Below, piece after piece: positions 34,566 through 38,143 of a DNA stretch of 64,000 nt; position 1 is the first letter of the stretch; the number at the start of each line of letters is the position of its first letter. Location of the stretch: positions 1,379,001 to 1,443,000 of the forward strand of contig NZ_AP024718.1 of the NCBI RefSeq assembly GCF_030294985.1. The letters run 5' to 3'. Below the pieces are notes generated by a model. The model did no database searches. It had not been told where the DNA came from and worked only from the letters and a program-made list of their open reading frames with translations. Source of the DNA: Methylomarinovum tepidoasis (GTDB taxonomy: Bacteria > Pseudomonadota > Gammaproteobacteria > Methylococcales > Methylothermaceae). The translations under genes were made by a program, and so were the position numbers.

Positions 34566-34770
34566 CTTTGCGGGGTATCGTTCATGGCGCCTCATCATCC
34601 GACGAGTCTCGAACCATGAGGAGCCTACGACACCCCCGCTCACTCGGCGAGTTTTGTCAGGCAGTCAAGTCGGCGGCCTGTATTGTCTGTGATATCGGGG
34701 AAGGCAGCTGTAAGGATTTTCCCTGCAGGCCACTTAATTTGTTGATTCAATCGTCAAGGAGTCGTTCGTG

Positions 34771-35196
34771 ATGAGCAAGTACCAGTTTTCCCGGGGTGCG
34801 GTCTTGGCGACGGCGGCCGCGGCCATCTTCAGCGCTGGCTGTACCTCGCAGAATCAGGCTGAACAGGAAGGCAAGGCGGCTGCCGCCCAGCCGCAGGCGC
34901 TCCGGCCCGGTCAGGCGCCGATGCAGCAGCAGGGTCAAGAGGCCATGCAGGGCATGGAAGGCAAGGCCAAGGGCATGATGGAAGGCATGAAACAGCGGAT
35001 GCAGGGGGCCGTGGATCAGGCGACCGAAGTCAAGGTGGCCTGTTTCGGCATCAACGCCTGCAAGGGCCAGTCCGAATGCGCCACTCCCAACAACGCCTGC
35101 AAGGGCATGAACGCCTGCAAGGGCCAGGGATTCCTGTACGTCAGCCTCAAGGAATGCGAGGCCAAGGGCGGCAAGGTCATCACCCCCAGCATGTGA
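34771..35196 (+). CDS. bufA: Bufferin precursor (BufA2-type copper-binding RiPP)
   Basis: A 141-residue precursor: an N-terminal signal (residues 1-24) ending IFSAGC, which could be a lipobox with Cys24; a Gln/Met-rich linker (about 25-88); and a C-terminal core with six cysteines (C91, C97, C103, C110, C116, C129) in [16 protein letters not shown] and [15 protein letters not shown]. The repeated N-A-C-K-G units match bufferins, whose middle cysteines are changed to thiooxazoles by BufB/BufC to bind copper in the periplasm. The next two genes encode those partners. A GTG at 34768 is an alternative start. Role by family and context. Confidence 0.88.
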
Positions 35197-35233
35197 ACCG
35201 GCGGCCCGCCGTCAGGCAGGCCGTTCAGATACC

Positions 35234-36070
35234 ATGACGCCCCGTCCCTTTCCCGGCTTCGGCCTCGGCCTGCGCAAGGAGCACTACGAAGCCGTGTTGA
35301 CGCAAAAGCCGGCGCTCGGCTGGTTCGAGATTCTCACCGAGAACTATCTGGTCGATGGCGGCAAGCCGCTGCACTATCTCGACCGCATCCGCGCCGACTA
35401 CCCGCTGGCCATGCACGGGGTCTCCCTCTCCATCGGCAGCACCGATCCCCTGAACCGGGATTACCTCGCCCGCCTCAAGACCCTGGTCGATCGGGTCGAG
35501 CCGCTGTGGGTGTCCGACCACCTGTGCTGGACCGGGGTGGACGGCCTCAACCTCCACGACCTGCTGCCGCTGCCCTACACCGAAGAGGCGCTCGGCCACG
35601 TGGTCGCCCGGATCGGGCAGGTGCAGGACTTCCTGGGGCGGCGGATTCTGCTGGAGAACGTCTCCAGCTATCTCAGCTATCCCGAATCGGAGATGGCCGA
35701 GTGGGAATTTCTGTCTCAGGTGGCCGAACGGGCCGACTGCCTGATCCTGCTCGACATCAACAACATCTACGTCAGCGCCCGCAATCACGGCTTCGATCCC
35801 GACGCCTATCTGGCAGCGATCCCGCCCGGGCGGGTGTGGCAGTTCCACCTGGCCGGTCACACCGACCTGGGGGAGGTGGTCATCGATACCCACGATCACC
35901 CCGTCCGGCGGGAGGTGTGGGACCTGTTCGCCCGGGCCGCGGCCCGCTTCGGGCCGGTGGCCACCATGATCGAGCGCGACGACCGCATTCCGCCGCTGGA
36001 AACCTTGCTTCAGGAGCTGGACCAGGCCCGTCGCATCGCCGAGCCCCTGTGGACCCATGAAGCTGCGTGA
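35234..36070 (+). CDS. bufB: Bufferin maturase BufB (DUF692, multinuclear non-heme iron oxygenase)
   Basis: A 278-residue TIM-barrel MNIO enzyme that installs heterocycles on precursor cysteines. Candidate iron ligands are visible: [10 protein letters not shown] (His61), WVSDHLCW (Asp95/His96), LLENVSSY (Glu141), LDINNIYV (Asp174), FHLAGH (His205, His209) and IDTHDH (Asp218, His220, His222). It follows bufA after 37 bases and overlaps bufC by 14, so the three form one operon. Family membership is firm; the exact modification is by analogy to characterised bufferins. Confidence 0.93.
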
Positions 36071-36785
36071 GCGCCAGCGGCAGCTGCAGCAGGAGATCGT
36101 CACAGGCCGGAGGTTGGACTGGCCGGGGCTGGCGATCTACCAGAACGCCTACCGCCTGCGCCTGACCGAGGCCCTGGCGGTGGATTATCCGCTGCTGCGG
36201 CGCTGGCTGGGGGAGGCGGCTTTCACTCGCCTGGCTCGGGATTATCTTGCCGCCTACCCGTCGCGTCATTTTTCCATCCGCCGGATCGGCCGCCGGCTGC
36301 CCGAATTCCTCGCTCGGCAGGGGGAAGCGGCGCTGGCGGATTTCGCCGCCTTCGAATGGGCCCTGGGGCTGGCCTTCGACTGCGCCGACGCCCGGGCCTT
36401 GAGGCCCGCCGATCTGGCTGCGGTGCCTCCGCAGGACTGGCCGGGGCTGCGCTTTCGTTTCCATCCCAGCGTGCAGCTCCTCTGGCAGCGTCACGCCATT
36501 CTGCCCCTCTGGCGCGCCCTGCAGGCAGGCGATCCTCCGCCCGCCTGCCCGCCCTTGGAGACGCCGGTGCCGGTGTTGATCTGGCGGCGGGAACTGCGAC
36601 AGTTCTTCCGCTCTCTGACGCCGGAGGAGGCCGGCGCTTTGGAGCGTCTGCGGCAGGGGGAGGATTTCGCCGCCTGCTGCGAATGGCTGGCGCGACGACC
36701 TGCCGTGGATGATGCCGCCCACCGGATCGCTTCCTGGCTGCAATGTTGGCTGCGGGAAGGTTTGATCGTCGGATTTCGTGTTTGA
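36057..36785 (+). CDS. bufC: BufC, DUF2063 partner of the MNIO enzyme
   Basis: A 242-residue DUF2063 protein: [20 protein letters not shown] with [20 protein letters not shown] at the start, the family hallmark (despite the name putative DNA-binding domain). In bufferin and related systems it recognises the precursor and delivers it to the MNIO enzyme. The start overlaps the bufB end by 14 bases. The C-terminal half, as often, is divergent. It converges on an outer-membrane protein gene 9 bases away. Confidence 0.9.
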
Positions 36786-36793
36786 CAGACGAC

Positions 36794-38071
36794 CTAAAAC
36801 ATTCCCGAGACCCACACCGTCACCTGATTCCCATACCCCGTCCGGCCCCGCTTGAGGCCGAAATTGTGGGCGTAGTCCACCACCAGCAGCAGTCCACCCG
36901 GCAGCCCACTGCTCAGGCGCACGCCGGCGAAGGGCATCAGGGTGTTGTGGCGCTGGCGTTTGCCGTGGCGGTATCGGATGGGATCCAGGTGAGCGGTGCC
37001 GCCGTAGAGGTGGACGAAGCTGAAGAAGGTGGGGGCGAAGCGGTATTCACCATAGCCGATGGCGTAGTGGCGGGGGAAGAATTCCAGATAGGCGGCCCCC
37101 GGGATAACGGGAAAACCGGTGGTGTGGAAGTCCATTCCCAGGGGATTGATGCCGCCGCCGAGGCGGCGGGTGACGCTGCGGTTGAAGCGGTCGGGGTGGT
37201 GGGTGATGCCTGCGTTGACGGCGGCGATCAGGCGGTGGCGGCCGCCGGCGAAGGGGACGGGCAGGGCGGCCAGGGCGTAGCCGCTGCCGGTCAGGTAATG
37301 GCGGTGGCCGTTTTCCCGCCGGTCGACGCCCCAGTCGCGCCAGTTCGCCCGCCAGCCCCAGACGCCGTCGGCGCCGAAGGCCAGTCCTCGGTCCGGCAGG
37401 CTGAGCAGGTTGCGGCGCAGCCCGTCCCAACGCAGTTGCAGCCGCGAGCGCAGCTCGAAGGTGTCACCGGGCGAGCGGAAGCGTTGGGCGTGGTCGCCGA
37501 AGTAGAGCAGGCCGGGTTCCACGATTAGATCGGCGGCGGCCATGTTGTCCACCGCCGGCCCCACCTGGCGGCGGTAGCCAAGGCCGATGCCGGGGCGCAC
37601 GTAGCCCCATTCGGTTTCACCGTCCTCGTCGTTGCGGCCTTCGATCAGCTCCCCCTGCTGCAGTTTGGGAAGCGTGTAGTTCTCGAAGGTGGTGACCCAT
37701 TCGAAGGGCGAGCCGTCGCGGAAGCTGCGGGCGTGGAACAGATGGTTGTAGACCAGGGCGATGTCGCCGTAGAGCAGGTGGTTTTCGTCGGGCCGGCGCC
37801 ACAGGTAGAGCGATCCGGCCGGATCCACCGGGCGGTCGCCGGGGGTGGGGAAGTTGAAGGTGAGTCCCAGGGTCCAGGCGTCGAGACGGCGGCGGTCGAA
37901 GCCGGGGAAGCGGATCTCGCGGCCGAGGAAACGGGTGTGGAAGGGCTCGCCCAGGGCGGGGGGATCGTCCGCCAGTGCCGCCGCCGGCGTGAGGCCGCCG
38001 GTGGGTTGCGCCGCCAGCGCCGCACTGCACAAAGCCGCTGCGATGCCGTGAAACCAACGCCTTTTCGCCAT
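36794..38071 (-). CDS. Predicted outer-membrane beta-barrel protein
   Basis: A 425-residue exported protein: signal [20 protein letters not shown], then strands rich in aromatic ends ([44 protein letters not shown]) and a terminal Phe in WVSGMF. I do not recognise the family with certainty. I chose ATG 38071 to give a clean signal peptide; an in-frame ATG/GTG at 38104 adds 11 residues. It stands alone, convergent with bufC and divergent from alaC. A link to the bufferin operon is not shown. Confidence 0.6.
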
Positions 38072-38143
38072 CGTCTCAACTCCTGTTTGACAGTTGGAAA
38101 CCACCCAAGTAACTTTAACCCATTTATCTCACCGACTGAACGG

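Follow-up and report, generated by a model that had tools for sequence, protein, structure and literature searches.

The window, by which we mean the whole stretch of 64,000 nucleotides of the Methylomarinovum tepidoasis genome under analysis, contains three genes in the order bufA-bufB-bufC (Table 1), the last two of which overlap by 14 nt. The start of bufA was placed at the ATG at 34771, a GTG lying in frame at 34768, and its stop codon ends at 35196. The precursor BufA scores 78.3 bits against the NCBIfam profile NF050166 Cu_RiPP_BufA2 (cut-off 60) and BufB 398.4 bits against NF050167 MNIO_BufB (cut-off 310), in addition to 382.8 bits against Pfam PF05114 and to relatives in the PDB (3bww, and MbnB 7fc0/7tcr). 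BufC passes the Pfam profile PF09836 DUF2063 (72 bits, cut-off 27.2) and matches NCBIfam HvfC along its full length, but with 36.5 bits, under the cut-off of 142. Since the scores of BufA and BufB exceed their cut-offs, the operon match is well above chance, and the region 34771-36785 is, judging from its sequence, a BufA2-type (Buf2) bufferin operon, as BufA and BufB agree with curated profiles and BufC is identified by its Pfam domain and its position. The preliminary description of this DNA, which had seen in bufABC a bufferin RiPP operon, was thus correct in its coordinates as well as in its assignment. Within the genome, bufB is the sole MNIO gene detected (a single match each in the protein search and in the profile search) and bufC the sole DUF2063 gene detected (a single match). 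The published Buf2 systems share with bufABC the six-cysteine core, the gene order, the Sec-type signal and the pairing of an MNIO with a DUF2063 partner (PMC12452194). Methanobactin was considered and rejected, as BufB reaches only 79 bits against MbnB TIGR04159 (cut-off 325) versus the 398.4 bits obtained with the BufB profile.

Table 1. Features of the bufABC operon and of related loci in the host genome; positions refer to the window unless a contig (G000:C1) or locus (L067) is named.
Feature	Position	Strand	Description
Junction remnant pgsA-bufA	34668..34762	+	Phosphatidyltransferase 3' end and intergenic DNA; local DNA alignment with sister species G001
bufA	34771..35196	+	Precursor of a BufA2/Buf2 bufferin; 141 aa, including seven Cys
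Signal motif	34783..34830	+	Common to Buf2 precursors with either cleavage type; possible BufB-BufC leader
Lipobox S-A-G-C	34831..34842	+	Cys24 codon 34840-34842, predicted lipidation site; Thr at +2
Linker	34843..35034	+	64 residues, no Cys, seven Met
Bufferin core	35035..35193	+	Six Cys (residues 91, 97, 103, 110, 116, 129), three NACKG units
bufB	35234..36070	+	MNIO (DUF692) maturase, 278 aa
bufC	36057..36785	+	DUF2063 partner protein, 242 aa
CDP-alcohol phosphatidyltransferase gene, intact	G000:C1:54135-54578		Main contig; end changed
AMO/pmoA-family genes	G000:C1:578611-579324; G000:C1:2353028-2353741		Identical profile scores
merA and MerC-Buf2	L067:6313-8664 (G000:C1 about 2149312-2151663)		MerA mercury(II) reductase, 563.6 bits
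MerC-Buf2 fusion	L067:7972-8664		Starts 12 nt after merA

Six cysteines and repeated NACKG units had initially been noted in the core; this count holds, and in the precursor as a whole the lipobox cysteine is the seventh. In an alignment of 74 Buf2 sequences, five of the six core cysteine columns are invariant and the sixth is conserved in at least 90%, and the ten genomes of the genus encode a core of 53 residues with six cysteines, which is the published norm, found in 90% of Buf2 (PMC12452194). EGKCG repeats, the mark of the oxazolin/HvfA family, are absent from the BufA core, which has NACKG units. In respect to modification, MNIO/PME1 pairs broadly install 5-thiooxazole (PMC13097082) and in Buf1 the outer cysteine pair forms a disulphide (PMC12452194); by analogy with Buf1, residues 91 and 129 of BufA may be engaged in a disulphide and the inner four cysteines modified. 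The likeness to Buf1 (DUF2282, Caulobacter) lies in the operon logic and, by analogy, in the thiooxazole chemistry, whereas Buf1 has a different core with four conserved cysteines, and its founding member has no reported lipobox. The AlphaFold2 model of the BufA precursor (mean pLDDT 64, pTM 0.35) does not have the quality that a fold search or an assignment of cysteine pairs would require.

The signal of BufA ends in AIFSAGC and its N-terminus agrees with the lipoprotein pattern, having a basic n-region, an uncharged h-region and a lipobox with Cys at +1, as called by a pattern and a hydrophobicity filter, not by SignalP. The residue at -3 is serine, other residues being commoner at this position of lipoboxes. 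Each of the ten genomes of the genus has a bufA orthologue, the closest relatives being Methylothermaceae MAGs, and without exception [IL]F[ST][AS]GC is kept at the end of the signal, with an invariant cysteine. Pairwise identity among the ten BufA sequences averages 67% for the signal, 25% for the linker and 84% for the core. Because this cysteine is fixed beside a rapidly diverging linker, lipidation is the best explanation for it, a reading supported by the comparison of sequences; the earlier suggestion that IFSAGC may be a lipobox is therefore favoured, and remains a prediction. The residue after the lipobox cysteine (+2) usually governs sorting between inner and outer membrane, aspartate being the relevant residue. 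As it is Thr, Ser or Ala and never Asp in the ten genus members, and LolA is encoded in the genome, the outer membrane appears to be the likelier destination of BufA.

The idea of a lipidated Buf2 is already published, and BufA is a well-formed further case. Lipoprotein signals such as that of BufA were predicted for a subset of Buf2 precursors (∼16%; PMC12452194), a later preprint again reports them in a subset of bufferins and oxazolins (PMC12636315), and for the oxazolin NedA of Neisseria dentiae tri-acylation plus modification were shown (PMC12636315). NedA resembles BufA in being an MNIO-modified peptide of the copper type on the lipoprotein pathway, but it carries EGKCG repeats and is established experimentally, whereas BufA has a Buf2 core and a lipidation predicted from sequence. 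No word beginning with 'Methylo' occurs in the main texts of PMC12452194 and PMC12636315.

Lipobox and core are separated by a linker, of which residues 57-80 are modelled as a helix by AlphaFold2 with low confidence. Across the ten genomes of the genus the linker measures 40-64 residues and is devoid of cysteine, and the distance from the lipobox cysteine to the first core cysteine is 42-66 residues, versus 13-24 in 19 of the 20 other lipidated Buf2; the one exception outside the genus, with a distance of 75, probably represents a multi-domain protein of which the last domain alone was matched. Within the Buf2 sample, the long tether is, by these distances, a trait of the genus. A Met-rich linker acting as a conserved second copper site was considered and rejected, since the linker methionines number from 0 to 8 across the genus. 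In two sister MAGs (L003:811-1392 and L002:1-513), a gene for a 193-aa Met-rich predicted lipoprotein overlaps the start of bufA by 4 nt; this protein displays MEGMKQGMQ repeats, 16 Met and no Cys except that of its lipobox, and the same type of repeat is also found within the linker of the BufA encoded at 34771-35196.

Buf2 precursors with type I and with type II sites have the same N-terminal motif, approximately K-x-[TS]-G-x-A-L-A-x-A-A-A-A-[LM]-F, in which one alanine is 99% conserved. Using a matrix of 115 Buf2 N-termini, made without the MerC-Buf2 fusions, BufA scores 30.7, against 16.1 for the best of 1468 unrelated ORFs; in all the MerC-Buf2 fusions examined, the motif precedes the first core cysteine by exactly 20 residues, with scores of 16.7-21.3. 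Within the genus, the last 16 signal columns of BufA are 82% identical, and the identity of the signal versus the rest of the protein is 28% versus 67% for LolA and 41% versus 69% for BamD, while for BufA it is the above 67% versus 84% for the core. Being conserved nearly like the core and kept in the fusions, the signal fits preliminary findings which the authors of the Buf1 study cite and according to which it is part of BufB-BufC recognition (PMC12452194), and it is possible that it doubles as a leader for these two proteins. Shared ancestry and the requirement for a membrane helix could account for part of this conservation. The shared motif provides a concrete site for how BufB-BufC grip the precursor prior to export.

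We thus consider with good confidence that bufABC makes a lipidated Buf2 bufferin, which would be modified by BufBC, exported, anchored to the membrane and engaged in Cu(I) buffering. In the cytoplasm, the iron oxidase BufB together with BufC would turn some of the six core cysteines into 5-thiooxazoles, the conserved signal sequence probably serving them as leader. Sec export would be followed by diacylation of Cys24 by Lgt and cleavage by signal peptidase II (LspA), and the lipidated BufA would probably be sorted to the outer membrane, with a tether of ∼65 residues presenting its Cu(I)-binding core to the periplasm. The function in copper stress is carried over from the family by analogy, and no copper gene adjoining the operon was seen in the neighbourhood. 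If BufA is lipidated, a copper-binding peptide would be held at one envelope site instead of diffusing, and such a fixed location would alter how copper is stored or withheld from other proteins. A methanotroph lends itself to this question, because copper is there both a key nutrient and a poison.

The same anatomy could serve another role. The host is a methanotroph belonging to the Methylothermaceae and its genome of 2.44 Mb contains, as expected, two AMO/pmoA-family genes of equal profile score, probably corresponding to duplicated pmo operons. The tethered core might then be a Cu(I) store or relay for the particulate methane monooxygenase and not a detoxification buffer, and the Met-rich linker might offer another site: besides the two pmoA genes, this reading is favoured by the seven methionines of the linker, part of which is modelled as a helix, and by the two sister genomes that couple a separate Met-rich lipoprotein gene to bufA. 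However, the variable number of linker methionines in the genus leaves no conserved site, the operon has no gene link to pmo, and the published bufferin data deal with copper stress, so that we regard such a role as unlikely.

A further alternative concerns the fate of Cys24. Our survey comprised 115 stand-alone Buf2 precursors, a non-random sample that is gammaproteobacterial for the most part; a lipobox is predicted in 20 of the 105 from outside the genus (19%, near the published figure of ∼16%), spread over many families, and the remaining 85 have type I sites. BufA might likewise be a soluble periplasmic bufferin, cut by signal peptidase I at SAG|C or later and leaving Cys24 unlipidated, as SAG|C is compatible with the -3/-1 rule of this enzyme. 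Against this, every one of the ten genus members has Cys24, in contrast to the freely varying sequence downstream, the linker has no other cysteine, and the AxA-type site which soluble relatives have slightly further on is missing from the genus precursors; a soluble BufA is thus improbable, and the lipidated form is the one that we retain. On the core tree, the type I/II label undergoes 11 changes, of which the starred branches force only 3 in a tree of few columns; repeated switching between the two cleavage types is nevertheless likely from these sequences. In the gammaproteobacterial set, the tandem bufA loci (L004, L055, L056, L093, L130, L156 and L163) combine one soluble and one lipidated precursor in seven of seven cases. 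This pairing was rejected as a general rule, as it occurs in none of four tandem loci in a fresh set from outside the Gammaproteobacteria (L173-L176, two lineages), where both copies are soluble in every case.

Besides BufA, the genome encodes another Buf2 domain, which forms a fusion with MerC and whose gene lies directly downstream of merA (Table 1); MerC-Buf2 fusions are already known (PMC12452194). Like BufA, the fusion is predicted to present a Buf2 core bound to the membrane, but it would be anchored by the MerC helices and has no MNIO gene of its own, so that one MNIO enzyme faces two Buf2 domains, both predicted to be membrane-bound. Unlike in the published Buf2 systems, no stand-alone soluble Buf2 was found in the host genome. 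The MerC-Buf2 protein is either matured in trans by BufBC or unmodified. That bufABC itself serves another metal or stress, such as the mercury suggested for the fusion, whose gene sits behind merA, is highly improbable, as no mer gene lies near bufABC and BufA matches the copper bufferin profile NF050166. A broader proposal, to which we assign little probability, is that all Buf2 of the genus are membrane-bound, as a long-tether outer-membrane lipoprotein and, in several species, as MerC fusion, that one BufBC matures both by way of the signal-derived motif (an internal helix in the fusion), and that the role of the tethered bufferin extends beyond detoxification to the copper management of methane oxidation.

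In respect to the genomic context, bufA is preceded in most genus members by a CDP-alcohol phosphatidyltransferase gene. As ∼95 bp of the former junction persist before bufA and pgsA now lies elsewhere in the host genome, bufABC and pgsA were probably separated by a rearrangement that postdates the divergence from the sister species. Upstream of bufA, no clear promoter or regulator block is shared across the ten genomes, and neither a sigma-70 nor a terminator site there was informative. Convergent to bufC, on the opposite strand, lies a gene (36797-38104) for a 436-aa protein without Pfam match, which is possibly an outer-membrane barrel.
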